Positions 1,884-33,928 of a stretch of 33,992 nucleotides of DNA are shown in pieces. This stretch comes from an uncultured Methanobrevibacter sp. (lineage in GTDB: Archaea; Methanobacteriota; Methanobacteria; Methanobacteriales; Methanobacteriaceae): positions 1-33,992 of the forward strand of contig NZ_CACYJE010000013.1 of NCBI RefSeq assembly GCF_902774605.1, written 5' to 3'. How positions within the stretch are numbered: position 1 is the stretch's first letter; each line of letters begins with the position of its first letter. A program made the position numbers and the translations under genes. A model generated the notes under the pieces. The model was not told the DNA's origin. It did not search any database and was given only the letters and a program-made list of their open reading frames with translations.

Positions 1884-3782
1884 TTAGTCAATTTTCAGAT
1901 ATAATAATGTCATATCATCAAATTGCTCTTCATCTCTTGTAAAGTTATGGATATCATTTAATAATGGTCTTATAGGGTCTTTTTCACTTCCATATTCATT
2001 AAAGAAGTTCAATAATTTGTCCTCGCCATACATTTCCTCGTTTGAATTATTTGCATCGGTAATTCCATCAGTATATAAAACAATTTCCTCTGATAGGATA
2101 ATTTCTTCTGTTTGGAACTTAAAGTCTTCCATGATTCCTAAAACGATTCCAGTGTCAATACTCTGATATTTGAACTTTTCATTTTCTTTAATTAATGGTG
2201 GATTATGACCTGCATTGGAGAAAATTAATTCATGAGTTGTTTTATTGTATATTCCAAGCCATAATGTGATAAACATTGATTCCTGATTATTTTCACATAA
2301 CTGATTATTTAAAATGTATAAAATCTCTGAAGGATCCTGATTTTGCTTTAGAAGTTGTTTTATCATTACTTGGGTAATCATTGCAAGAATAGCTGCTGGA
2401 ACGCCTTTTCCTGAAGCATCTCCGATCACAATGACTAAATGTTCATCATCTAATTCATAATAATCAAAAAAGTCCCCTCCAACTTCCTTGGCGGGTTTGG
2501 AATAACCATTGACTTTATAATATTCGCTGACAAGAGGTTCAGTAGGCAGGTTTGCCGCTTGGATTCTAGTTGCAATGTCAAGTTCAGCTTTAATGCGCTC
2601 TTTTTCCCCCTCAATTTCACGAATATTTTCAATGTATCTATTGTTAAAGTTAATCAGGTCAGTATATGAACGGGCAAGGGTTCCAATTTCGTTTTTTTCA
2701 TTAATATACCTTGAGTAAATGTCTACTAATCCCTCGGATTCGATTTTTTCATGTTCATGGATAAATTCCTCAATTTTTGAGAATGATATGATAGGTTCAA
2801 TCACTTTAATTTCCACGTGTCTTAAAACCGCCAGTGATGGGATTAAAAATATTATTAGCAACGCGTCCATTATTGCCATCATCGAAATCATGATTTCGGT
2901 TCTATTTATTGGAAGTAAAGAATCGATGGCAGTGATGAGGAGATGGTCATAAGATATTATTACTCCAAGAATCATGATGACTAATATTGTTAAATGGAAG
3001 ATGTTCATTATCTCTTCTGGAATGGACCGGGTATTGGAAGTGACTATATTTGAAGTGATAGGCTTTGTCAAATAAATGAATAAAAGCAAACCAATGATTA
3101 TTAACTCAATAATTATGATTGAATGATTCACATTAACGGCAAAATCAGTTATTAATATTAAGATTAATAATGTGATTAAAAGGATGCCTAAAGATTTGTA
3201 GAGTTTTTTATTGAATCCTTTTTTTGATGTTTTTGGAATGTGGGCGCAATCTAGCTTATTTGATAACCAAATTCCGATTATTCCAAAAATGAATGCGGAA
3301 TTAATAAAGTTCAGGAAGTATCTAGTCTCAATAAGGCTAGTAATAGGGGATGTTTCAGGATTGATTAAGCAAAATAGCTTCCCATGCATTGATGAGTATA
3401 GCAGGCCGCAGAGAATAATGATTCCTATGAATAAAATCACATTGAATGTATTGTTTAATTTTGGTCTTGTAACTGCTGGTCTGTATTTAAAATCTGTATA
3501 CCATAGTTTATATCCTAAATATGATATTCCAAGGCCAACTATTGCGGACAATGATGCTAAGGGCAGACCATATCCTCTAATAATGTCGCATAAGAGATTA
3601 CCGGCAACTGCTCCTATTGTGCCGTAAGGTCCAAAGATCAGTCCGGAAATTAATAATATTCCTACATGGGGGCTTAATCCTTCTCCATAATTATGTCCAT
3701 AAGTCAAATAGTATGTTCCTAGATTGAAAATTAGCATTAATGCAAATGGAATTACTATCTTTTTTATTTTATCATTCATCAT
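1884..3782 (-). CDS. Membrane-anchored SpoIIE/RsbU-type PP2C serine phosphatase
   Basis: The 632-residue protein has a membrane N-half and a cytosolic phosphatase. Residues about 10-175 hold hydrophobic helices with glycines and a charged pair (GPYGTIGAVAGNLLCDIIRG) that recall the substrate-binding subunits of ECF transporters. Further helices lie at about 197-240, 262-285 and 297-320. A HAMP-like and coiled-coil linker follows (about 325-402). The PP2C core is at about 403-632, with metal-binding acidic residues in GGDFFD (435-440), GDASGKG (454-460), YTDGITD (570-576) and DDMT (622-625), plus the NAGHNPPL turn (523-530). It should dephosphorylate the STAS protein of the same operon. Its ATG overlaps the upstream kinase's stop by four bases, so translation is probably coupled. 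The sensed signal is unknown. The phosphatase call is firm; the ECF resemblance is tentative. Confidence 0.9.
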   Translation of the reverse strand: MMNDKIKKIVIPFALMLIFNLGTYYLTYGHNYGEGLSPHVGILLISGLIFGPYGTIGAVAGNLLCDIIRGYGLPLASLSAIVGLGISYLGYKLWYTDFKYRPAVTRPKLNNTFNVILFIGIIILCGLLYSSMHGKLFCLINPETSPITSLIETRYFLNFINSAFIFGIIGIWLSNKLDCAHIPKTSKKGFNKKLYKSLGILLITLLILILITDFAVNVNHSIIIIELIIIGLLLFIYLTKPITSNIVTSNTRSIPEEIMNIFHLTILVIMILGVIISYDHLLITAIDSLLPINRTEIMISMMAIMDALLIIFLIPSLAVLRHVEIKVIEPIISFSKIEEFIHEHEKIESEGLVDIYSRYINEKNEIGTLARSYTDLINFNNRYIENIREIEGEKERIKAELDIATRIQAANLPTEPLVSEYYKVNGYSKPAKEVGGDFFDYYELDDEHLVIVIGDASGKGVPAAILAMITQVMIKQLLKQNQDPSEILYILNNQLCENNQESMFITLWLGIYNKTTHELIFSNAGHNPPLIKENEKFKYQSIDTGIVLGIMEDFKFQTEEIILSEEIVLYTDGITDANNSNEEMYGEDKLLNFFNEYGSEKDPIRPLLNDIHNFTRDEEQFDDMTLLYLKID

Positions 3783-4156
3783 TCCACATTTTTCATAATC
3801 TTTAAGTGATTTTCACCATTCACATGATTGTATGTTATTTCATCAGCAAATTCTTTTGTTAAAAAGATTCCAAGACCTCCGATTTGAGCATCCTCAATAT
3901 TTTCAGGAAGTTCTGGTTTTTCTTTTAAAAGCGGATTGAATTCAACTCCATTGTCAATAAATTCAATTGTTAATAGGGCATTATCAAATTCAATATTGAC
4001 TTTGATAAACTTGGTTTTAGAGTAATTAACAATATTGACAAATATTTCTTCAACAATAAAATTAACTTGAATGTTCTCTTCGCCAAGTTCACTTAAAACA
4101 AACTCGTTTAATGTATATAATTCATTTAATTCAGGTTCTAATGAAATAGATTTCAT
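3779..4156 (-). CDS. RsbW/SpoIIAB-like serine kinase (HATPase_c_2 domain)
   Basis: This is a 125-residue single-domain GHKL ATPase of the anti-sigma-factor kinase type. The N box is at 36-44 (E36, E37, N41, N44). The G1 box is D68-N69-G70 followed by FNPL, a hallmark of the RsbW group. The G2 box is G93-G94-L95-G96 followed by IFLTKEFADE. All ATP-binding elements are present, so it is probably active. In bacteria such kinases phosphorylate a STAS partner and sequester a sigma factor. Archaea have no sigma factors, so the second partner here is unknown. It overlaps the STAS gene upstream (ATGA) and the phosphatase downstream by four bases each, giving a compact operon. The same FNP-containing G1 signature recurs in the C-terminus of the MATE protein at 15161-16888. 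Confidence 0.9.
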   Translation of the reverse strand: MKSISLEPELNELYTLNEFVLSELGEENIQVNFIVEEIFVNIVNYSKTKFIKVNIEFDNALLTIEFIDNGVEFNPLLKEKPELPENIEDAQIGGLGIFLTKEFADEITYNHVNGENHLKIMKNVE

Positions 4157-4452
4157 TCTATCTTTAATATTTTGTCAAAACCTGACATTCTGAATATTTC
4201 GCCAATGGTATCATTAACGTTTTTGATAGTCATTGGAATGTCTTCAGGTTTTAATTTCTTTTGGGTTGCAATTAAAACACGTAAACCTGCACTGGAAATG
4301 TATTCTAAATCTGAGAAATCTATGATTAATGAATCAAACTTGCCTATCTCGTCATTTATCTCATTTTCAAAATCCGGTGCGGTAACTGTGTCAATACGGT
4401 TTCCAACTTTAACAGTCAATTCTTTTTCATTATAATTTTTCACAATATCCAT
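4153..4452 (-). CDS. STAS domain protein, anti-sigma factor antagonist-like (RsbV/SpoIIAA)
   Basis: The 99-residue protein is a lone STAS domain. The segment YISSAGLR (51-58) aligns with the FMDSSGLG segment of Bacillus SpoIIAA; by that alignment Ser54 is the phosphorylation site, and the usual preceding Asp is replaced by Ser53. It should switch between phosphorylated and free forms under the kinase and phosphatase encoded downstream. It is the first gene of the operon. Its ATG at 4452 follows a GTGAT ribosome site, and its stop overlaps the kinase start. The operon is read away from the second DUF4013 gene, with a 346-base divergent region between them. What the free form binds is not shown here; the exporter-linked ATPase domain at about 16530-16888 is one candidate. 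Confidence 0.88.
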   Translation of the reverse strand: MDIVKNYNEKELTVKVGNRIDTVTAPDFENEINDEIGKFDSLIIDFSDLEYISSAGLRVLIATQKKLKPEDIPMTIKNVNDTIGEIFRMSGFDKILKIE

Positions 4453-7077: not shown

Positions 7078-7343
7078 TGGTAGATTGTATCGATAATTTC
7101 ACTTAATCATTAGTAAGTGTATTTTCATGCCTACTAAAGTTTAAATTTAATTCAATCCTATGTAAAATATTCATATGGTTGGGACTTTTAAGGAAGTGGG
7201 AAGCGAAGTGACTTGTATGATATATGCCGATTTTTTTTTACATTTTACTGTTATTCATTGAAAATGCACTATTTAATAAAATAAAATATATTTAGTCTAA
7301 ATGATAGACTTTTATTATATTTGTCAATTAGTAGGTGGGAATT
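7078..7343 (+). promoter_or_regulatory. Leader and promoter region of the NRPS operon
   Basis: This gap holds no supported gene. A TATA-like AAAATATATTTA at 7283-7294 lies 50-61 bases before the NRPS ATG. Directly after it is an inverted repeat, AGTCTA (7294-7299) and TAGACT (7305-7310), which falls between the TATA box and the expected transcription start and could be a repressor site. A weaker 6-bp repeat, CACTTA/TAAGTG (7100-7105 and 7114-7119), sits just after pyruvate kinase. A 28-codon open frame (7175-7261) lacks a ribosome site. A run of nine T at 7231-7239 could end a short transcript. Confidence 0.4.
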
Positions 7344-10300
7344 ATGCACAAGTTTAATCTATCATCATCTCAGAAGATGCTGTTGTTCTCTGAGGTAAAC
7401 AATCCTAACAACGACTCGTTTTATCTCAAATTCAGAAAGGATTATGATTTGAAGAATTTTGATGACGTAAAACAAGCTATTGAATGTATTTCTAGAAATA
7501 ATTTAAACTTAAAAATTAAATATGATGAAAATGGTGATTTCAAGCAATATTACGATGATTTTGATGTAAATGTAGAATCATTTGAAGTTGCTGATGAAAA
7601 TTTGAATAAATTCATTGCAGATTACTTGGATGAACCTTTTGATGATGTTTTCGATTCTCCCTTGTATAAATGGGCAGTATTAAAAACAGAATCATCAGCT
7701 ATCCTTATCGGGGTTGTACAGCATATCCTATTGGATGGAACTTCCTTATTTTCATTAATTCCTCAGGAAATTGAAAAGTATATCGGTGATGAGGAATATG
7801 TTCCAGAGGATTATTCTTACGAAACTTATGTTAATGATGAAATGGATTATTTGGAGTCACCTGAATCCAGTGAAGATAAAAAATATTGGTTAAACACTTT
7901 AAAGGATTATTCGCAGGATTGGTATTCATTCGTCAAGTCCGAACTTGGTTATTATGAAGTGCTTTTGGATCAAATCCCCAACTTTGAGTATTCTCCCTTT
8001 GTCACTGCACTTGCACTTGAGTTTTTATACTTTGCAAAATCCAAAATGAACAACAAATTGTTTAGGGACATTGTGATGAACACTTCCGTCCATGGAAGAT
8101 ACTTCGGGCAAGGTGATGCTCTTGGAATGTTTGTAAATACAATTCCATTAAGGCTTGCCTATAATGAGGATTTAACCTTTGATGAGTTGCTGGCGTATTC
8201 AAAATCAGTTCTAAAAGAGGGATTGGCACATGCCAAATTGCAGTTCAGTGAATACACAACTGATTTGAGAAATGTAGGCATTGACCCTGACTGCATTTCA
8301 ATGTTTTCCATCGTGTCCAATTCCACAGACTATGATTCAAAATTCCTGACTTTGCAAAAGGATATCAAGTTCCCATTGCACTTCAGGATAAATAAGAACT
8401 ATTCAGATAAAAATGGTCTGCAATCCATATTTGTGGAATATGACAAATCCTGCTTCAGCCATTATGAAATTGAATCAATTGCAAATGGTTTAAGGGATTT
8501 GCTAAGGCAGATAATAGATGATTCATCCAAAAAATGCAGGGATTATTCTGTTGAAGTGGTTGATTTCTTCAAGGCTGAAAACTACTACAATAACATGATA
8601 AATTCATTTGACAATCCGACAGCAATCTCTCCAGATATGAGTGGAGACAATGTAAAATTCTGCGAAATTTCCAAACCAATAGATGATGATAAATTAAAGA
8701 ACTTGTCAAAACAATATAATCTGTCTAAGGAAAGAATTCTGTTGTCCGTGTTCATGTTTAACTTGACAAAATTCTCATTTTCAAAAGATATTCTTGTTGC
8801 CTACAATAAACAGGCTTGCGGATATCATTTCAACACAGATTTATCTGTTATGGAATACTTAGATGACTTTAAAAAGTATTTCAAGCATTACTCAAATTAT
8901 CCTTTGTTAAACAATAAAAAACTCAATTTTAAAAGTGAAATATTGTTTTTCACTAATGAATACGATGCCCAGGACTATAAATTCGTATTAAATTATGAAA
9001 GTGGTAAAATCAACATCAGCTATGACGAGTCATTCTACTCAAAAGCACTAATTGAAACATTTCTGGAATCAATTGAAGTTTTATTGGATAGATTTGAATC
9101 AAGCGACAGTTTATTGAAAGACATTTCCATAAGAAGAGAACTTGAATATGATGAGGACTTTAAGATTGAACTTGCAAATGAAGGAGTTGTCAACAAGGTC
9201 TTTGACAGGGCTGTAGCTCAAAACCCTCAAAAAACAATACTCATTGCAGAAGACGGGGAATTAACATATGATGAGTTGAACAAAAAATCCAATAGGATAG
9301 CTAATGCATTAATCAAAAGAGGAGTGAACATTGAAGACAGAGTAATGTTCATGATGAGAAGAAACAGTGACTTGATAGCTGCAGTTTTAGGTATTGTCAA
9401 GGCGGGAGCCGCTTTCATACCAATTGATCCGAAGTATCCTATAAACAGAATCAATCAAATCCTGGAGGACAGTGATTCCAAATTCGTCATAACAAGTTCG
9501 GAAATAGGTTATGATGGAGAAAACAGAATAGATGTTGATGATTTGCTCGATGAAAGTGATGATTCCAATCCAGAAATTGAGTTAATTCCTGATAACTTGT
9601 GTTTCATGATTTATACCTCAGGTTCAACCGGAAAGCCTAAGGGTGTAATGATTACCCATAGGGGAATCACAAACTATGTTGCAAATGTTGAGGAGAATGT
9701 CCCGATTTATGAGTTGAATCACAAGTGTAACAAGTTCATTTCAATTTCAACAGTTTCCTTCATTGTATTTCTGAGAGAGGTGTTTGGTACAATACTCAAT
9801 GGATTGCCGGTGGTGTTTGCAAACGATGAGGAATCAATAGATCCATTGAAATTGGTTGAATTGTTCAAAAAAACAGAAGCTCAAGGATTTGGTTCCACTC
9901 CGACAAGACTGCTTGAATACCTGCAGCTTGAAGAGATTCAGGATGTTGTTAAGGATTGTAATGTGATAATTGTGGGCGGGGAAGGATTCCCTCCTATATT
10001 ATATGACAGACTGTCAAAATACACTGATGCAGACATCTACAATTCTTACGGTCCGACAGAGGTCACCATTGCATCACACTACAAGTTGATTGACTCACCT
10101 CAAGTCTCCGCAGGATGGAAAATGCTCAATGTGGTTGATAAGATAATGGATATCGATGGAAATCAACTGCCTCCATATGTTGCGGGTGAAATCTATGTTG
10201 GGGGTGCAGGAATTGCAAGAGGATATCTGAATAATAATGAGCAAACCCAAAAGGTCTTTTTAACAGTTAATGACATTCCATATTACAATACTGGAGATTT

Positions 10301-13300
10301 GGGTAAAAAAGATGCTAACGGCGAGCTATATGTTCATGGAAGAAATGATACTCAAATCAAACTTAGGGGCTTAAGAATAGAATTGTCTGAAATTGAAGGG
10401 GCAATTGCCAATTATGAAAATATTTCCCTTTCAAAGGTTGTTGTTAAAAAAATCAATTCAGTTGAGCATTTATGCGCTTACTTTACAGCAATAGCTGATA
10501 TAGATATTGATGATTTAAGGCAACATTTAATAGATTCAATTCCTGAGTATATGGTTCCATCTTATTTCACACAACTTGACGAGTTTCCTAAAACTCCAAA
10601 TGGAAAGACAGACTTCAAAAACTTGCCTGACCCGGAAATTGACGTTGATGATTTTATAAAACCAAGAACTGAAATCGAACAGGAGTTATTCAATATTGTA
10701 TCTGAACTCCTGAACATTGAGGAATTTGGTGTGAACACTGATTTATTCAGCATAGGATTGACTTCATTGTCTGTAATCAAATTAACGTCTGCAATTTACA
10801 ATAACTTGAATGCACAGTTAAACGTTACTGAAATACTTAATTATAAGACAATTGAAAGAATCGCTTCAGAAATTAAGATTGAAGACGCATCATCAAGTGA
10901 TGTGCAGGAATTATATCCTTTAACCTCAAATCAACTTGGAGTTTACTTTGACTGCATTAAAGACCCTGAAAACACTGCATATAATCTTCCAAAGAAAATA
11001 GAATTTGATGAAGGCATTGATGCAGATAAACTCAAGTTATCAATTGTTAAAGCCATTGAAAATCATCCATATCTAAAAACAAGAATTATAATGGAAAACG
11101 GTGAGGTTTACCAAGAAAGAAGGGATGACCTTAAAGTTGAGGATTTAATAGAAATGGTTGATGATGCTAATGTGGACGAGTTTGTAAAGCCGTTCAAGCT
11201 TGATGAGGGGCCATTGTTCCGCTTCAAGATAGTTGGAAATTCAATGCTGCTTGCTGATTTCCACCATATCATCGTTGATGGAACTTCATTAAACATTCTA
11301 TTTGATGAAATAGCTAAAATCTATGATGGGAAAGATTATGATCTTGAAGAGCTTGATGGATTCGAATACTCCTTGAATGAAAAGAAAACAGAGCAATCCC
11401 GCTTATATGAAGAGGCTAAACTATTTTTCTCCAATAAGATTAAGGAATTTGATGATGCCACATTGATTCCACAGGACATCAATGGTGATGAGTCACAAGG
11501 CAGTGCTGCAATGGATGATATCTTCTTGGATAAGGAATCCATTGATGGGTTCTGCGCCAAATCAGGCATATCTCAAAATAACTTATTCCTGGCTGCAACT
11601 TCATTTGTCATAAACAAGTTTGTTTACAATCGTGAAATATTGATTGCAACAATCACTAACGGCAGATTCAATCCAAACCAGCAAAAGACATTGGCAATGA
11701 TGGTTAAGACATTGCCTTTAGCATTGAAATTGAATTCAGATTCAAATATCAAGGAATACTTTGACTACATTAATGGTGAATGGTTAAGCGTATTGGGTTA
11801 CTCCTCATATCCTCTAACAGAAATTTCAAACGAGTTCGACATCACTCCTGAAATATTGTATGCATATCACGGAAAAATCATAGAGGACATTGAAATCGGG
11901 GGAATGAATGTCGAAAGGCAATCAATCGATTATGAAGGATTGAAATTCAAGATAAACATTAATGTTGTTGATATCGGAGACCAATACAGGATTTTCTGCG
12001 AATACAATGACCAATTATACTCTAAAACTTTAATTGATACATTCCTTAACTGTATTAGGGTTGTTCTGAATAAATTCCAAAAATTCGATGAAAAAACCTT
12101 GATGAAGGATATTTCAATAATCGAAAATGATGATTGGGGAGCTGACGATTTAGAATATGATGAAATTCCAGAGGAAAGATTAAACAAGATATTTGAAAAT
12201 CAGGTGGAAATGCATCCGGACAAGGTTGTTTTATATGCCACCGATGGGGAATTCACATATGGGCAATTAAATGAAAAGGCCAACCGGATTGCACATAGTC
12301 TTATCAAAAAGGGCGTAGGTCCTGAAGACAGGATAATGTTCATTCTCAACAGGGACAGTAACACAATCGCATCAATTTTCGGTATCTTGAAATCAGGCGC
12401 TGCATTTATTCCGGTGGACTCAGAATATCCTTCTGAAAGAATTGAGCACGTATTGACCGACAGCAAGTCAAAATACATAATTGTGGATGATGTGATTGAG
12501 AAAAAATCCATAGACCTGTCCCAATATGGGGACAATCTATTGGATGTCCATGAACTTCTAAAAGAGGAGGACACTTCAAACCCTGACCCTGACGTTCATG
12601 GAAATAACATGGCTTATCTCATCTACACTTCAGGTTCCACGGGACTTCCGAAAGGAGTAATTCTCGAACATGGAAACATTGCAAACTTCGTTTATCCTGA
12701 TCCTAGAAATGTCTGTACCTATGAACTGGTGCACAATCTTGAAAAAGAGGATTATAAGGTACTGTCCACCACAACAGTTGCTTTTGATGTATTCCAGCAA
12801 GAGATTATGGGATCCCTATTGAATGGGGTGCCGATGGTATTTGCTAATGACACCGAATACAAAGACCCAATCGAAATGATGAGCCTGATTCACAGGACAG
12901 GCGCCAATGTCTACATTGCAACTCCATCACGTTTGCTGCAATACCTGGAAATCGAAGCGATGCAGGAGACAATGTACGGATTCAAGGTATACATTCACGC
13001 TGGAGAACCATTCTCCGCCAGATTATATGAACTACTTTCACAAAACTCCAATGGAAAATTATTCAACATGTACGGACCAACCGAGACAACAGTCTACTGT
13101 AACGGTCAATTGCTTGAAAGTTCAGACATTCACATTGGAAAAGAGCTTTTCAACGTACATGAAATGGTTATGGATTTCGATTCAAACCCATTGCCTCCAA
13201 ATGTCATTGGGGAATTGTACATTGCAGGGAAAGGTGTTTCAAGAGAATACCTGAACCGTCCTGAGAAAAATGAAGAGGCATATGAAACAATTAACGGAAT

Positions 13301-15149
13301 CCGGTTCTACCGCTCAGGGGACTTTGTCAAAGTCACTGAAGATGGGGACTATTATGTGTTCGGAAGAATGGATAACCAAATCAAGCTCAGAGGATTAAGG
13401 ATTGAAATAGGTGAGATTGAAGTTGGTCTTTCAAAATTCCCTGGAATCAAATCCGTTGCCGTTGTAGTTAAAAAGATTAAGGGCAATGATCACTTATGTG
13501 CATATTTCACTGTTCATGATGATTACAAGGATGAAAACCGTGAGGAGAACGGATATTCAATTGATATTGATGAGTTAAAGGCTTCACTTGCTGAAAAATT
13601 GGTATATTACATGGTTCCAACAGTCTACATGGAACTTGATGAAATGCCTCAAACTGCAAACGGTAAAACCGATTTGAGGAATTTGCCTGAACCAGTTCTA
13701 ATCACTGAATATGTTGCTCCTGAAAATGACATTGAAGCATTCTTTGCAAGCCTGTTTGCAGAAATTTTAGGACTTGATGAAGTAAGCGCTACGGACAACT
13801 TCTTTGAAATCGGTGGAACTTCACTTCTAGTTACTAAAATTACCATGGAGGCTATTAACAGAAATTATAACCTTAATTACGGGGATGTATTCTCAAATCC
13901 GACTCCAAGGGCATTGTCAGACTTTATATTATCTGATGAGTCATTAGAGAAGAAATCAGAATTGGCTTATGACTATTCTGAAATCAACAGGCTGCTTGAG
14001 AAAAACAATATTGAAACAATCATTAATGGTGAAATCCAAGACAGCTTAGGTAATGTGCTATTGACCGGAGCCACAGGATTTTTAGGAATACATGTATTGC
14101 GAGAATTACTTGAAAATGAAGATGGTGAAATTTACTGTTTCATAAGATCCAATAAGGTTCTAAGCGGCGCTGAAAGATTGAAATCACTTCTATTCTATTA
14201 TTTCTCAGATGAGTACAATGAGGCATTTGATGAAAGGCTGCACATTATCGAAGGGGACATCACAAACTTTGAGGACTTTGAAAAGCTTGTGCATGAGAAA
14301 ATAGATACGGTATTCAACTGTGCTGCTAACGTAAAACACTTCTCTTCAGGAACAGACATTGAAGATATCAACCTTGGCGGTGTAGTCAATGGACTCAAGT
14401 TTGCTAAAATGAAGAATGCGAAATATGTTCAGATTTCAACTTACAGTATTGCGGGCGAAAGTATTGACAACTATCCTCCAGTTGACGTTAAATTCACAGA
14501 AAATGATCTTTTCATCGGTCAAGCAGTGGATAACCAATATTTAAACAGTAAATTCCTTGCGGAACGTGCTGTATTGGAAGCTGCCGTTAATGATGATTTG
14601 GATGTCAAGATTATGCGTGTAGGTAACCTGATGGCCAGAAGTTCGGACAGTGAATTCCAAATCAACTTCGTATCAAACGGTTTCATCAACCGTCTTAAGG
14701 CGTTCGTGACAATAGGTAAAATGCCATATTCCATGCTTATGAACCCTGTTGAATTTTCACCGATTGACATTACCGCCAAAGCTATTGTGGGGTTGTCTAA
14801 AACTCCTAAGGAATGTACTGTTTTCCATCCATATGATTATCACAATATCTATTTTGGAGATATAATTAATATAATTAGACCGTTAGGATTGACAATTGAT
14901 CCTGCTGAAGAGGATGATTATCAAAAAGCATTGGATGAAGCTCTTGCAGACAAAACAAAACAAGAGGGAGTTTCCGGCTTAATCACATCTATTGGTTCAG
15001 GTAAGGTTAAAAAGATATGGCTTCCTGTAGACAATTCCTATACAATTCAGGCATTATATCGTTTAGGAATTACATGGCCATTCCTTTCAGAGGAATATGT
15101 TTATAATTTTGTAAAATACTTGGATGAACTTGATTTCTTTAGTGTTTAA
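7344..15149 (+). CDS. Two-module NRPS with terminal thioester reductase
   Basis: The 2601-residue enzyme assembles a dipeptide-like product on carrier domains. By eye the order is: C1 (1-430; H127, D131, G132 in QHILLDG); an extra C-terminal half of a C domain (about 430-605); A1 (about 605-1110; YTSGSTGKPKG from 757, SYGPTE near 901); PCP1 (Ser1141 in GLTSL); C2 (about 1190-1630; HHIIVDG, H1308); A2 (about 1640-2120; YTSGSTGLPKG from 1761); PCP2 (Ser2160 in IGGTSL); reductase (about 2225-2601; TGATGFLG, Y2399, K2403). No thioesterase is present, so release should be NAD(P)H-dependent as aldehyde or alcohol. The start is ATG 7344 behind GGTGGGA; GTG 7335 is part of the ribosome site. A MATE exporter follows by 11 bases. 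Archaeal NRPSs are rare and this one probably came from bacteria, although its AT-rich codon use now matches the neighbours. The product is not predictable from this alone. Confidence 0.95.
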   Translation: MHKFNLSSSQKMLLFSEVNNPNNDSFYLKFRKDYDLKNFDDVKQAIECISRNNLNLKIKYDENGDFKQYYDDFDVNVESFEVADENLNKFIADYLDEPFDDVFDSPLYKWAVLKTESSAILIGVVQHILLDGTSLFSLIPQEIEKYIGDEEYVPEDYSYETYVNDEMDYLESPESSEDKKYWLNTLKDYSQDWYSFVKSELGYYEVLLDQIPNFEYSPFVTALALEFLYFAKSKMNNKLFRDIVMNTSVHGRYFGQGDALGMFVNTIPLRLAYNEDLTFDELLAYSKSVLKEGLAHAKLQFSEYTTDLRNVGIDPDCISMFSIVSNSTDYDSKFLTLQKDIKFPLHFRINKNYSDKNGLQSIFVEYDKSCFSHYEIESIANGLRDLLRQIIDDSSKKCRDYSVEVVDFFKAENYYNNMINSFDNPTAISPDMSGDNVKFCEISKPIDDDKLKNLSKQYNLSKERILLSVFMFNLTKFSFSKDILVAYNKQACGYHFNTDLSVMEYLDDFKKYFKHYSNYPLLNNKKLNFKSEILFFTNEYDAQDYKFVLNYESGKINISYDESFYSKALIETFLESIEVLLDRFESSDSLLKDISIRRELEYDEDFKIELANEGVVNKVFDRAVAQNPQKTILIAEDGELTYDELNKKSNRIANALIKRGVNIEDRVMFMMRRNSDLIAAVLGIVKAGAAFIPIDPKYPINRINQILEDSDSKFVITSSEIGYDGENRIDVDDLLDESDDSNPEIELIPDNLCFMIYTSGSTGKPKGVMITHRGITNYVANVEENVPIYELNHKCNKFISISTVSFIVFLREVFGTILNGLPVVFANDEESIDPLKLVELFKKTEAQGFGSTPTRLLEYLQLEEIQDVVKDCNVIIVGGEGFPPILYDRLSKYTDADIYNSYGPTEVTIASHYKLIDSPQVSAGWKMLNVVDKIMDIDGNQLPPYVAGEIYVGGAGIARGYLNNNEQTQKVFLTVNDIPYYNTGDLGKKDANGELYVHGRNDTQIKLRGLRIELSEIEGAIANYENISLSKVVVKKINSVEHLCAYFTAIADIDIDDLRQHLIDSIPEYMVPSYFTQLDEFPKTPNGKTDFKNLPDPEIDVDDFIKPRTEIEQELFNIVSELLNIEEFGVNTDLFSIGLTSLSVIKLTSAIYNNLNAQLNVTEILNYKTIERIASEIKIEDASSSDVQELYPLTSNQLGVYFDCIKDPENTAYNLPKKIEFDEGIDADKLKLSIVKAIENHPYLKTRIIMENGEVYQERRDDLKVEDLIEMVDDANVDEFVKPFKLDEGPLFRFKIVGNSMLLADFHHIIVDGTSLNILFDEIAKIYDGKDYDLEELDGFEYSLNEKKTEQSRLYEEAKLFFSNKIKEFDDATLIPQDINGDESQGSAAMDDIFLDKESIDGFCAKSGISQNNLFLAATSFVINKFVYNREILIATITNGRFNPNQQKTLAMMVKTLPLALKLNSDSNIKEYFDYINGEWLSVLGYSSYPLTEISNEFDITPEILYAYHGKIIEDIEIGGMNVERQSIDYEGLKFKININVVDIGDQYRIFCEYNDQLYSKTLIDTFLNCIRVVLNKFQKFDEKTLMKDISIIENDDWGADDLEYDEIPEERLNKIFENQVEMHPDKVVLYATDGEFTYGQLNEKANRIAHSLIKKGVGPEDRIMFILNRDSNTIASIFGILKSGAAFIPVDSEYPSERIEHVLTDSKSKYIIVDDVIEKKSIDLSQYGDNLLDVHELLKEEDTSNPDPDVHGNNMAYLIYTSGSTGLPKGVILEHGNIANFVYPDPRNVCTYELVHNLEKEDYKVLSTTTVAFDVFQQEIMGSLLNGVPMVFANDTEYKDPIEMMSLIHRTGANVYIATPSRLLQYLEIEAMQETMYGFKVYIHAGEPFSARLYELLSQNSNGKLFNMYGPTETTVYCNGQLLESSDIHIGKELFNVHEMVMDFDSNPLPPNVIGELYIAGKGVSREYLNRPEKNEEAYETINGIRFYRSGDFVKVTEDGDYYVFGRMDNQIKLRGLRIEIGEIEVGLSKFPGIKSVAVVVKKIKGNDHLCAYFTVHDDYKDENREENGYSIDIDELKASLAEKLVYYMVPTVYMELDEMPQTANGKTDLRNLPEPVLITEYVAPENDIEAFFASLFAEILGLDEVSATDNFFEIGGTSLLVTKITMEAINRNYNLNYGDVFSNPTPRALSDFILSDESLEKKSELAYDYSEINRLLEKNNIETIINGEIQDSLGNVLLTGATGFLGIHVLRELLENEDGEIYCFIRSNKVLSGAERLKSLLFYYFSDEYNEAFDERLHIIEGDITNFEDFEKLVHEKIDTVFNCAANVKHFSSGTDIEDINLGGVVNGLKFAKMKNAKYVQISTYSIAGESIDNYPPVDVKFTENDLFIGQAVDNQYLNSKFLAERAVLEAAVNDDLDVKIMRVGNLMARSSDSEFQINFVSNGFINRLKAFVTIGKMPYSMLMNPVEFSPIDITAKAIVGLSKTPKECTVFHPYDYHNIYFGDIINIIRPLGLTIDPAEEDDYQKALDEALADKTKQEGVSGLITSIGSGKVKKIWLPVDNSYTIQALYRLGITWPFLSEEYVYNFVKYLDELDFFSV

Positions 15150-15160
15150 GGGGTAAAACA

Positions 15161-16888
15161 ATGTATGAACGTAATTATGAGTTATTAAGAAGTAAGTTTG
15201 CAGAGTTTTTTCTGCCTACATTATTCACTTCCATGGCAGGAAATATTTGTCTTTTTGTAGATGGTTTGATTGTGAGTTTTTTGCTCGGTGCAGCCAACCT
15301 GTCAGCAATTCAGATTGTTGCTCCCATAATCACTTTTGTAAATCTCATTTACTGGATGATTGGATTGGGAGGCAGTGTTCTCTGCTCTGTTGCAAAGGCG
15401 GAATTCGATGATGAAAAGAGCAATAGCTACTTTTCGGTGGCAATAATATCTCTTTTAACAATAGGGATAGTGATAGCAATTGTAGGTCTTATATTTTCAG
15501 GCTCAATTGCCCAGTTTTTATGTGCTTCACAGCCCGAATTGATTCCGGATGTCACTAGCTATTTCCGTTCATTGGTTATTGGAATGCCGTTTTTATGTTA
15601 TATGATGAGTTTATCATACTTTATAAGGGCAGATGGAATTCCTACCTTGCCTTTCAGAGCAATATTGTTGGCTAACATTATCAACATCTGCTTTGATTTC
15701 ATATATATTCAATTCTTTAATTTGGGAATAGGGGGTGCCGCATTGGCTACCTCAACAGGGTATTTGACAGGTTCAATATTCATTTCATATTATTTCTTCA
15801 AGTCAGAGCGTACATTACAATTCATAAAATTGAAATTAAGTTCGTTTTTATCTTTCCTTAAGGGGATTGTCACTTCAGGATTTTCATCTGCATCGACCCA
15901 ATTGTACTTGACATTAAAGCTATTGATTATAAACTCCTTGATTGGAATATATGTTGGAAACGCAGGTCTTGTAGCATTTGGTATTTGTTATAACAGTTTG
16001 TTCATATTGTACATATTTTTAATTGGGACATCTCAGACAATGTCTCCAATTGTGTCAGTTTACTATAAGGAAGAGGATTATTCCGGTGTGAATTACATTA
16101 TTCGCAGATCATTGAAAATAGTGTTTGTTTCAAGTCTTGCATTGGCGGTTTTATTCATCATTTGTCCTCAATCCTTGTTGATGTTGTACAGCGTTAAGGA
16201 CCCGGCTTATGTTCCTGTTGTCTTAAATGCTGTAAGGATATTTGCAATAAGCTATGTGGGAACTGCAATAACATTCTTATATACGTTCTATTCTCAGGCA
16301 ATACAGAAAAATCAATTGTCTACAATCATTTCATTGCTTGAAGGATTGATATTTCCGATTGGATTTGCAACAGTATTGTCCTTTGTGTTTGGAGGAAATG
16401 GAATCTGGATTTCATTTGCATTGGCAGAACTCTTTACAATACTGTTCATATTTGCATATTCAAGATACCTCAACAGGAAAACCAATGGGGAGTTCTCAGG
16501 ATTTTTTATCAACAAGCATAATGACGATACAAAAGTATGCGAGTATACCATACATGGCAATATTGAAGAGGCTGTTGAATTGTCACAAGAGGTTCAAAAT
16601 TATTTAGAAGGCAACAAATCCGCAATGGTGGTAAGTATGGCCATTGAGGAAATGATTGTGAATATTATCAACATTAATGATGAGGTCGACACAATTGATG
16701 TGATTGTCAGAAATAATGATGACAATATCACGATTTCAATCAAGGATACAGGAATCGATTTCAATCCTATGACTGAAAATGATAATTTGGAATTTGACAA
16801 CATTAGTGTCCTAAACAGAATAGCCGATAAAATCGATTATTCCAGGGTTTTGGGATTGAACAGTACAGTTATCACAATCAAAAATTAA
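15161..16888 (+). CDS. MATE-family exporter fused to an RsbW-like HATPase domain
   Basis: Residues 1-440 form a MATE transporter with about 12 helices, with MATE-like features such as LPTLFTSMAGNICLFVDGLIV near the start and a second half beginning near 225. A charged linker (about 440-457) leads to a cytosolic domain (458-575) that resembles anti-sigma kinases. It has an N box, E496-E497-x3-N501, and a G1 box, D529-T530-G531 followed by FNPM, as in the kinase at 3779-4156. The G2 glycine box is not recognisable: the equivalent stretch reads NISVLNRIADKIDYSRVLG, so ATP hydrolysis or kinase activity may be lost. The ATG follows TAAGGGGTAAAACA, 11 bases after the NRPS stop, so the two genes are almost certainly one operon. 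Likely role: export of the NRPS product, gated or localised by the ATPase domain (inference). A general drug-efflux role is the alternative. Confidence 0.9.
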   Translation: MYERNYELLRSKFAEFFLPTLFTSMAGNICLFVDGLIVSFLLGAANLSAIQIVAPIITFVNLIYWMIGLGGSVLCSVAKAEFDDEKSNSYFSVAIISLLTIGIVIAIVGLIFSGSIAQFLCASQPELIPDVTSYFRSLVIGMPFLCYMMSLSYFIRADGIPTLPFRAILLANIINICFDFIYIQFFNLGIGGAALATSTGYLTGSIFISYYFFKSERTLQFIKLKLSSFLSFLKGIVTSGFSSASTQLYLTLKLLIINSLIGIYVGNAGLVAFGICYNSLFILYIFLIGTSQTMSPIVSVYYKEEDYSGVNYIIRRSLKIVFVSSLALAVLFIICPQSLLMLYSVKDPAYVPVVLNAVRIFAISYVGTAITFLYTFYSQAIQKNQLSTIISLLEGLIFPIGFATVLSFVFGGNGIWISFALAELFTILFIFAYSRYLNRKTNGEFSGFFINKHNDDTKVCEYTIHGNIEEAVELSQEVQNYLEGNKSAMVVSMAIEEMIVNIININDEVDTIDVIVRNNDDNITISIKDTGIDFNPMTENDNLEFDNISVLNRIADKIDYSRVLGLNSTVITIKN

Positions 16889-31471: not shown

Positions 31472-32377
31472 GTGGGAGAGGATATTATAACTGATAAAAA
31501 TAATCCTACGAATGAAATTCAACATATTTACCGTGAAAAAACTGATAAGCGTATCTTAAAGAAAAATCCGTGGAAGGACTATGGATTGCACTTTACTGTA
31601 CTCGTTTTAGTGATAATTGCCGAATTAATCGGTCCGATTAAAATCCCAATTACCAGTGGGGTAGAAGTATCCATAATGCCTCTACTATACACAATGGTTT
31701 TAGGACTGGTATTTTACCTAGCAAAGCCGATCAAATGGATTCAAAGAAAACAATCCAGGGTTGCAGAAGGGGCAATGATGCTGTTTATCGGCATATTGAT
31801 TGCTAAACTCGCTGTGTCCAGCGGACAATCAATGCACCTATTGTTTGAAATGGGTCCTGCATTGCTGTTGCAGGAATTAGGACACTTGGCAACAATTTTA
31901 ATCGCTCTTCCGGTAGCATTGCTTTTAGGATTTAAACGAGAAGCCATCGGTATGACCAATTCAATCGGTCGTGAACCGGAAGTGGCAGTAGTTGTTGATA
32001 AATATGGATTCAATTCCCCGGAATCCCGTGGAATATTTGCATTATTCATTGTCGGAACAATAATCGGTACTGTATTCATCAGTTTCCTAACCAGTATCAG
32101 TGTTTCACTAATTCCGTTCCACCCATATGCATTCGCTATGGCAAGTGGAGTGGGCAGTGCAAGTATGAATGCGGCTTCCTTAGGACCTACTCTTGCGGCA
32201 TTTCCAGGATTGGAAACCCAAATCGAGGCGTTTGCAGGATTCAGTAATCTATTGTCATTCTCCATAGGAATATATATTGTAATATTCCTTGCATTGCCAT
32301 TGACTGAAAAGTTATATTACTTTTTGGAGCCAAAAATTGGAAGAAAGGCAATTGTTGAAGAAAAGGAGGGTGAATAA
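31472..32377 (+). CDS. DUF3100 family membrane protein, copy 1
   Basis: This protein of about 300 residues has a charged N-terminus (EIQHIYREKTDKRIL) and about eight membrane helices. The segments LAKPIKWIQRKQ, IGREPEVAVVVDKYGFNSPESRG and FAMASGVGSASMNAA match the DUF3100 pattern I know from methanogens and some bacteria. The function is unknown; a transporter role is plausible from the helix count and the small-residue-rich motif. The start is unclear. GTG 31472 has no ribosome site, whereas GGGAGAGG points to ATT 31484 or ATA 31487. The partner gene starts three bases after the stop with a strong AGGAGGGTGA site. The pair is duplicated directly downstream. Confidence 0.82.
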   Translation: MGEDIITDKNNPTNEIQHIYREKTDKRILKKNPWKDYGLHFTVLVLVIIAELIGPIKIPITSGVEVSIMPLLYTMVLGLVFYLAKPIKWIQRKQSRVAEGAMMLFIGILIAKLAVSSGQSMHLLFEMGPALLLQELGHLATILIALPVALLLGFKREAIGMTNSIGREPEVAVVVDKYGFNSPESRGIFALFIVGTIIGTVFISFLTSISVSLIPFHPYAFAMASGVGSASMNAASLGPTLAAFPGLETQIEAFAGFSNLLSFSIGIYIVIFLALPLTEKLYYFLEPKIGRKAIVEEKEGE

Positions 32378-33028: not shown

Positions 33029-33928
33029 TTGGAGTGGATTACAATTCCGGATAAAGATCCAAACGCTCAGCTTGAACATATCTATAGGGAAAAAACGGAT
33101 AAGCGTATTTTAAAAAGAAATCCATGGAGAGATTACAGATTACACATTACAGTACTAATTTTAGTTGTCATCGCTGAGTTGATAGGCACTATCACCATTC
33201 CAATCGCAAAGGACGTGGAAATCACGATAATGCCATTGATATACACCATCATCCTGGGACTTGTTTTTTACCTGGCAAAGCCAATCAAATGGATTCAAAG
33301 AAAACAGGCACGTATTGCTGAAGGGGCAATGATGCTTTTCATAGGAGTGTTGATTGCAAAATTAGCTGTGTCCAGCGGACAATCCATAAGCCTCATCTTT
33401 GACATGGGTCCGGCATTAATCCTGCAGGAACTGGGACACCTTGCAACCATTCTGGTGCTTCCGATAGCATTGTTATTGGGATTCAAGAAAGAGGCAATCG
33501 GAATGACAAACTCAATCGGAAGGGAGCCCAACGTTGCGGTAGTGGTTGACAAGTACGGTTTCAACTCTCCTGAATCAAGAGGAGTGTTTGCAATATTCAT
33601 CATAGGTACCGTAATAGGCACAATATTCATAAGCTTCCTTGTGACATTCTCACTGTCATTCCTGCCGCTGCACCCATATGCGTTCGCAATGGCTAGTGGA
33701 GTGGGCAGCGCAAGCATGAATGCAGCTGCCATAGGACCTACCTTGGCGGCATTTCCGGGAATGGAGACTCAAATCGAGGCGTTTGCAGGATTCAGCAATC
33801 TATTGTCATTCTGTGTGGGAATATATATTGTGATATTCGTAGCACTCCCATTGACTGAGAAAGTGTATGATTTGTTGGAGCCTAAAATCGGAAGAAAATC
33901 CATAATGCCCAAAAAGGAGGATGAATAG
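33029..33928 (+). CDS. DUF3100 family membrane protein, copy 2
   Basis: This protein of about 299 residues is a close paralogue of the protein at 31472-32377. Nearly all motifs are kept (LAKPIKWIQRKQ, VVVDKYGFNSPESRG, FAMASGVGSASMNAA, TQIEAFAGFSNLLSF). The differences are mostly conservative, apart from a one-residue deletion near the middle. The first possible start is TTG 33029. A GGAGTGGATT ribosome-like sequence sits just inside it, so the real start may be ATT 33044 or an adjacent codon. It is followed two bases after its stop by the second copy of the partner gene. The upstream leader also keeps a TATACTAA element seen before copy 1. Confidence 0.8.
   Translation: MEWITIPDKDPNAQLEHIYREKTDKRILKRNPWRDYRLHITVLILVVIAELIGTITIPIAKDVEITIMPLIYTIILGLVFYLAKPIKWIQRKQARIAEGAMMLFIGVLIAKLAVSSGQSISLIFDMGPALILQELGHLATILVLPIALLLGFKKEAIGMTNSIGREPNVAVVVDKYGFNSPESRGVFAIFIIGTVIGTIFISFLVTFSLSFLPLHPYAFAMASGVGSASMNAAAIGPTLAAFPGMETQIEAFAGFSNLLSFCVGIYIVIFVALPLTEKVYDLLEPKIGRKSIMPKKEDE

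Follow-up and report, generated by a model that had tools for sequence, protein, structure and literature searches.

A MATE exporter with a C-terminal RsbW-fold domain lacking the G2 box, encoded beside a nonribosomal peptide synthetase and a partner-switching gene set in Methanobrevibacter

Introduction

Partner switching is known mainly as a means of switching sigma factors. In Bacillus (RsbV/RsbW/RsbP(U) and SpoIIAA/SpoIIAB/SpoIIE) and Mycobacterium (UsfX-RsfB), the systems comprise a STAS protein with a conserved serine, an RsbW-type kinase and a SpoIIE phosphatase. The methanogen locus described here likewise encodes these components, but it has no sigma factor, and a second RsbW homologue that lacks the ATP lid and G2 box sits on a membrane exporter. 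That archaea lack sigma factors is well established, and this makes a sigma target impossible in this organism. A non-sigma output has a precedent, since SiaC of the partner-switch-like SiaABCD system of Pseudomonas aeruginosa acts on an enzyme, SiaD, and not on a sigma factor (PMC8457831). SiaABCD differs from the present locus in that its output is a diguanylate cyclase and a transporter is absent. We know of no RsbW homologue carried by the SiaABCD target.

SulP/SLC26 transporters carry a C-terminal STAS domain. They likewise join a transporter to a cytoplasmic partner-switching domain, but there the domain is STAS itself, whereas the exporter described here carries the kinase-like fold of the partner of STAS. 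In the colibactin NRPS-PKS pathway, a nonribosomal product is served by the MATE protein ClbM, which matches our exporter in fold and, to our knowledge, has no kinase-like domain. The aureusimine synthetase AusA and the gut nonribosomal peptide synthetases (NRPS) for peptide aldehydes and pyrazinones combine two modules with a terminal reductase, as does the synthetase of this locus. Guo and colleagues reportedly described gut NRPS that make peptide aldehydes in 2017.

Part of the literature describes NRPS clusters as common in rumen Methanobrevibacter and considers a bacterial origin by horizontal transfer likely. In M. ruminantium M1, the cluster mru0066-0071 contains an NRPS gene (mru0068) and genes for serine phosphatases, an anti-sigma factor antagonist and a MatE protein, and the passages of the genome paper on this cluster propose environment sensing, NRPS regulation and export (Leahy 2010, PMC2812497). 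Those same passages do not mention an RsbW-like domain on MatE. According to the text of that paper mru0068 ends in a thioesterase, but the legend to Figure S8 gives a thioester reductase (PMC2812497). Searches of the open literature, which takes in few subscription journals, led to this account of the cluster and to no description of a MATE-RsbW fusion.

Results

The window, i.e., the whole stretch of DNA that was analysed, comprises 33,992 nucleotides of contig NZ_CACYJE010000013.1 from an uncultured Methanobrevibacter sp. Positions 15161-16888 (+) form a single unbroken frame of 575 codons, and a frame break between the two parts of the product was looked for and not found there. We reject a frameshift artefact, since both parts share one frame in this window and also in archaeal and bacterial relatives. 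The helical transport part (15161-16480, approximately residues 1-440) is matched by MATE models over residues 19-416 (PF01554, 91 bits in two stretches; TIGR00797, 121 bits), and a full-length AlphaFold model (pLDDT 89.9, pTM 0.83) matches PfMATE (E 1e-14) and other MATE structures, with PfMATE and DinF-BH as the nearest solved folds of the transport part and ClbM at a lower rank. Given a MatE profile above its cut-off, two repeats and a modelled MATE fold, we assign the predicted product to the MATE (MOP) exporters.

The C-terminal part (16532-16885, residues 458-575) is an RsbW-like domain, and the fusion that a first-pass annotation had reported from the sequence is thus borne out by reading frame, profile and fold. 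The N box E496-E497-x-x-x-N501 lies at 16646-16663 and the G1 box D529-T-G531-x-x-F-N-P536 at 16745-16768, where the motif DTGIDFNPM starts at residue 529; the residue numbers given in that annotation are correct. Its further claim that the G2 box is absent also stands. Aligned with the freestanding kinase of the window, which reads IGGLGIF, the fused domain reads EFDNISV and is shorter by some 10 deleted residues, so that the ATP lid and the GGLG (G2) motif of the kinases are missing from the site at 16769-16810, a low-confidence loop in the model. A GLN motif near the C-terminus (G565-N567, 16853-16861) is conserved across the MATE-borne domains.

HATPase_c_2 (Pfam) scores 20.6 bits with the whole 575-residue protein, and the search of residues 450-575 alone that the annotation had called for gives 24.9 bits (E 2.1e-5). 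This match falls below the gathering score of 27.4, and default Pfam annotation therefore overlooks the domain. It spans positions 29-89 of the 127 in the profile, i.e., the N and G1 boxes, and leaves the ATP lid and the G2 end unmatched. The fold is clearer. A model of the domain built from 85 homologues (AlphaFold; mean pLDDT 82.1, pTM 0.75, with 63-67 in the lid region) retrieves UsfX, SpoIIAB and RsbW at the top ranks of Foldseek (E 6e-7 to 2e-4), and VIA-align gives Z of 13.7-15.9 to these three proteins, 11.7 to SiaB and about 8 to histidine kinases. The structural model proposed as a check thus shows an RsbW/SpoIIAB fold, and an ordinary histidine-kinase CA domain is rejected (Z of about 8 versus 14-16). 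By sequence, a profile of the MATE-borne family retrieves RsbW (6m36) and SpoIIAB (E 6e-5 to 3e-4), and phmmer searches of single domains against PDB sequences gave no convincing match. Chance resemblance is rejected because profile, fold and tree (see below) agree, and because 151 such domains occur on MATE proteins across archaea and bacteria. The domain combines a Bergerat fold with the N-box E and N and the D-x-G of G1; it falls short of the curated HATPase_c_2 cut-off and has no ATP lid or GGLG, and for these two reasons we do not file it as an RsbW kinase despite its RsbW fold. Loss of the lid and G2 makes kinase activity unlikely, and we reject the reading of the domain as an active second kinase. 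Nucleotide binding is uncertain, since the N box and G1 are kept here but lost in many relatives.

The gene upstream (7335-15149, +) encodes a two-module NRPS of 2604 residues with the order C-A-T-C-A-T-reductase, and its stop codon lies 11 bp upstream of the MATE start codon. It contains PF00668, PF00501 (two stretches), PF00550 (two stretches) and, at residues 2243-2484, the NAD-binding reductase domain PF07993 (NAD_binding_4), which places it among the reductase-terminated NRPS. Among NCBIfam models it scores highest against that of the aureusimine synthetase AusA, at 1047.6 bits and below the equivalog cut-off of 2500. This protein is the homologue of mru0068, and it ends in a reductase.

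On the opposite strand, three overlapping genes at 1884-4452 encode an RsbV/SpoIIAA-type STAS protein (4153-4452) with the phospho-acceptor motif YISSAGLRV (PF01740, 58.8 bits; TIGR00377, 64.8 bits, above cut-off), a freestanding RsbW-type kinase (3779-4156) with an intact IGGLGI (HATPase_c_2, 54.3 bits), and a membrane-anchored SpoIIE-type PP2C phosphatase (1884-3782; 154.8 bits). Judged by their sequences, a conserved-serine STAS, a GGLG kinase and SpoIIE together make this region a partner-switching gene set. The first-pass annotation had overlooked both this set and the NRPS, although they lie in the same window. The only two HATPase_c_2 matches of the 2.14-Mb assembly are the freestanding kinase and the MATE-borne domain; the only SpoIIE match and one of three STAS domains are likewise in the window. 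A DUF4013 protein and pyruvate kinase, encoded between the two gene groups, are not claimed as parts of the module.

The two remaining STAS domains of the assembly lie on other contigs. One is a stand-alone protein with an SSAGL motif at a contig edge (contig C48, L205 7689-7973), directly beside a frame that we read by eye as a putative Sfp-type phosphopantetheinyl transferase (L205 7023-7655), and the pair resembles mru0513-0514 of M. ruminantium. The other is C-terminal on a protein whose remainder looks, again by eye and not by profile, like a methyltransferase (contig C12, L206 6055-7326), and it keeps the SSAGL serine motif. Elsewhere in the window, two closely similar membrane proteins are encoded nearly in tandem (31472-32377 and 33029-33928), an apparent duplication.

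A domain search over 138 genomes of the family Methanobacteriaceae gave a match in 83, and by profile and frame length the fusion is present in 72, one of which (G102) was added by hand after direct inspection of a locus that the profile had missed. Counted over the 138 genomes with kinship ignored, the fused gene and a GGLG-type kinase occur together in 64 genomes, the fused gene alone in 8, the kinase alone in 15 and neither in 51; for SpoIIE, the corresponding numbers are 66, 6, 18 and 48. We scanned 84,980 species genomes for two peptide patterns, the first or second of which falls on the G1 box, a design that gives no fused fraction of MATE proteins, and obtained 188 confirmed loci. Among the 80 listed, 9 are archaeal and 71 bacterial, the latter mostly from Lachnospiraceae, Oscillospiraceae/Ruminococcus, Erysipelotrichaceae and Selenomonadales, and one Spirochaete and one Bacteroides MAG also appear; all 80 listed matches extend into the C-terminal domain (to at least query residue 577 of 590), where one of the search patterns lies. 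Two plasmid searches for fusions gave 31 records, none covering at least 80% of the query, and 74 records, two of which reached that coverage but extended no further than residues 481-483. The first-pass annotation had suggested regulated transport or a scaffold, perhaps a pseudokinase. This is most likely the right class of explanation, but the fusion had been treated as an isolated oddity, whereas the architecture is widespread.

Two kinds of altered copy were seen. Genome G019 shows the gene order of the M1 cluster, with the RsbW-like domain in another frame than MatE (L207 13815-15550; 487 + 109 aa), by decay or sequence error; a split of this kind may explain why the domain was overlooked in M1. 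In a further NRPS-linked subfamily of MATE proteins, of 556-565 aa, so little of the domain is left in the tail that it can barely be recognised (L200 7373-9064, L201 7479-9173, L202 7068-8735).

The loss of G2 is nearly general. In a deduplicated set of 151 MATE-borne domains (73 archaeal, 78 bacterial) and 56 kinases (free, GH3-fused or SpoIIE-fused), none of the 73 archaeal and 5 of the 78 bacterial MATE-borne domains (5/151) have GG[LFIM]G close to the C-terminus, versus 55 of the 56 kinases, a count that retains one of the 26 archaeal 'kinases' (L089), which has no GGLG and resembles a loose MATE-borne domain. The median G1-G2 spacing is 10 residues in archaeal and 14 in bacterial MATE-borne domains, compared to 20 in kinases, and bacterial copies often retain a GG[I] remnant. 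Counted residue by residue, the catalytic E is present in 50 of the 73 archaeal and all 78 bacterial MATE-borne domains, the N in 50 and 67, and the G1 D in 53 and 68, respectively. In a domain tree thinned to 84 MATE-borne and 42 kinase rows (L088, L089 and L117 dropped), the two classes fall on opposite sides of one branch (SH-aLRT 97). The archaeal NRPS-type domains form one group, and the archaeal GH3-type domains join a Lachnospiraceae sequence; this separate grouping points to repeated transfer between methanogens and bacteria.

The fused genes have recurrent neighbours. Of 72 archaeal fused genes (42 + 30), 37 have an NRPS gene at a distance of no more than 10 kb, 28 STAS, 22 the kinase, 21 SpoIIE and 8 GH3, numbers that lean upward because the regions were picked partly for a kinase match on the same contig, and that retain near-identical genomes (e.g., L044-L047). 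None of the five neighbours lies near 26 of these 72 genes within the stretch read, some contigs being short. For 52 bacterial fused genes in loci of at least 14 kb, the counts within 10 kb are NRPS 41, STAS 34, SpoIIE 32, kinase 31 and GH3 12, and for all 79 bacterial fused genes they are 56, 39, 37, 34 and 14, respectively. A control in five single-contig genomes is, like the whole-genome co-occurrence, free of kinase-based region selection: with kinship ignored, a SpoIIE or kinase gene lies within 15 kb of 0 of 30 plain MATE genes (frames of approximately 396-515 aa) versus 5 of 8 fused genes, and the degenerate MATE of G043 (L200; 564 aa), a direct neighbour of SpoIIE and STAS that would raise the linked number, is not among these eight.

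A second type of synthetase shares the arrangement. In four loci (L073, L074, L113, L114), the MATE-HATPase gene accompanies STAS, a GH3-kinase fusion and two SpoIIE genes; other GH3 clusters (L085, L086, L102) contain STAS, two GH3 genes, MATE-HATPase, kinase and SpoIIE; and in several Lachnospiraceae and Eubacterium loci (L142, L152, L154, L158, L181) a single stretch runs from NRPS-MATE-HATPase into STAS-MATE-HATPase-GH3-SpoIIE-kinase. Two further fusions were observed among these proteins. GH3 amide synthetases are fused to an intact RsbW-type kinase in proteins of 712-720 aa (L073 5304-7463, L074 6482-8617, L113 11766-13901, L114 7734-9869), and SpoIIE phosphatases to an RsbW-type kinase, which puts opposing enzymes in one chain (L075 9352-11643, L076 7577-9955; also L162, L167, L168, L172, L178, L184, L190 and L194).

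The phospho-acceptor serine is kept in all 68 of 68 STAS proteins. Over 49 loci, STAS and kinase coevolve strongly (Mantel analysis, r 0.74). Over the same 49 loci, STAS and the MATE-borne domain showed no coevolution once the transport part was partialled out (partial Mantel, r 0.03, p 0.29), nor did the kinase and the MATE-borne domain (partial r -0.12). Intact N and G1 motifs showed no association with linkage to the module (55/15 versus 15/2, p 0.51); when this test was split, archaea alone gave p 0.08 and bacteria the opposite direction (p 0.048), where 11 of 11 degenerate copies are linked to the module.

Discussion

We propose, at a level of confidence close to but short of an even chance, that the exporter is an arm of a sigma-free partner-switching module in which the disabled RsbW homologue docks STAS and thereby gates export of the NRPS product. 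Between them, SpoIIE in the membrane and the RsbW-type kinase with its intact GGLG would determine whether the single STAS serine is phosphorylated, and the catalytically disabled homologue on the exporter would be a docking site for one of the two STAS states, most likely the unphosphorylated one. By docking, STAS would change how active the MATE pump is in removing the NRPS product, presumably a peptide and perhaps an aldehyde, so that export would follow the same signal as the partner switch. This mechanism is supported by the complete STAS/kinase/SpoIIE set in the window, the neighbourhood counts, the control and the co-occurrence across genomes. It is supported further by the split in the tree, the GG[LFIM]G contrast, the invariant STAS serine and an arrangement common to NRPS and GH3 loci. 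Direct contact between STAS and the exporter is put forward as a hypothesis, because STAS and the MATE-borne domain show no coevolution, motif integrity is not associated with linkage, and module genes are missing from some genomes with the fusion.

The same gene linkage would be expected if information flowed in reverse, with the exporter as a sensor whose pseudo-RsbW domain holds or releases STAS according to transport or cargo occupancy and so reports product load to synthesis or to other targets. The fusion of kinases to a synthetase (GH3) and to phosphatases implies that signals may converge on synthesis, and the second STAS protein of this genome is encoded beside a putative phosphopantetheinyl transferase that would activate an NRPS. 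The missing coevolution signal between STAS and the MATE-borne domain over 49 loci counts against this reading too, and we regard it as unlikely, though worth keeping in view.

RsbW-family domains dimerise, and the domain could instead pair two exporters or an exporter and a kinase, or tether the exporter near the synthetase, in which case STAS phosphorylation would be irrelevant. Degenerate relatives that have lost the N box and the G1 D persist, also in genomes lacking the kinase or SpoIIE (G007, G008, G025, G032), so that neither nucleotide nor the module seems to be required for the fold to be of use, and conserved core residues are retained in the domain. Such a role leaves the linkage with STAS, SpoIIE and kinase unexplained, however, and the kinase does not coevolve with the domain (partial r -0.12); we consider it unlikely.

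A nucleotide-responsive gate, in which ATP or ADP bound at the N box and G1 would make pumping depend on energy charge, is improbable in our judgement. The E, N and D that it would use are kept here, in 50-53 of 73 archaeal and in 67-78 of 78 bacterial domains, and the GG[I] remnant is frequent in bacterial copies, but the elements that close over the phosphates, namely the lid and GGLG, have been shortened or lost altogether, and the key residues have been lost repeatedly, even in the module-linked degenerate copies of bacteria. That the domain is a functionless vestige is very improbable: some lineages show progressive decay, as in the 556-565-aa proteins, and G019 has a frame break, but the domain is retained across phyla with conserved core columns and, across 126 residues, shows 89% identity to that of the nearest relative.

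STAS docking on the exporter, our preferred reading, may be extended beyond this locus, although here we think the balance lies modestly against being right: NRPS and GH3 pathways of gut anaerobes and methanogens would be controlled post-translationally by a partner switch that targets the exporter, with the dead RsbW competing with the kinase for STAS and one serine deciding export. A MATE protein of approximately 575-620 aa with a sub-threshold HATPase_c_2 tail, which default Pfam annotation overlooks, would serve as a genomic marker of such loci. If the mechanism is true, partner switching also gates membrane transport, the switch has moved together with synthetase genes between gut Firmicutes and methanogens, and a regulatory logic is in hand for many uncharacterised NRPS and GH3 pathways of the gut. 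The role of SpoIIE-, RsbW- and RsbV-like proteins in archaea that have no sigma factor, a long-standing question, would thereby become directly testable.
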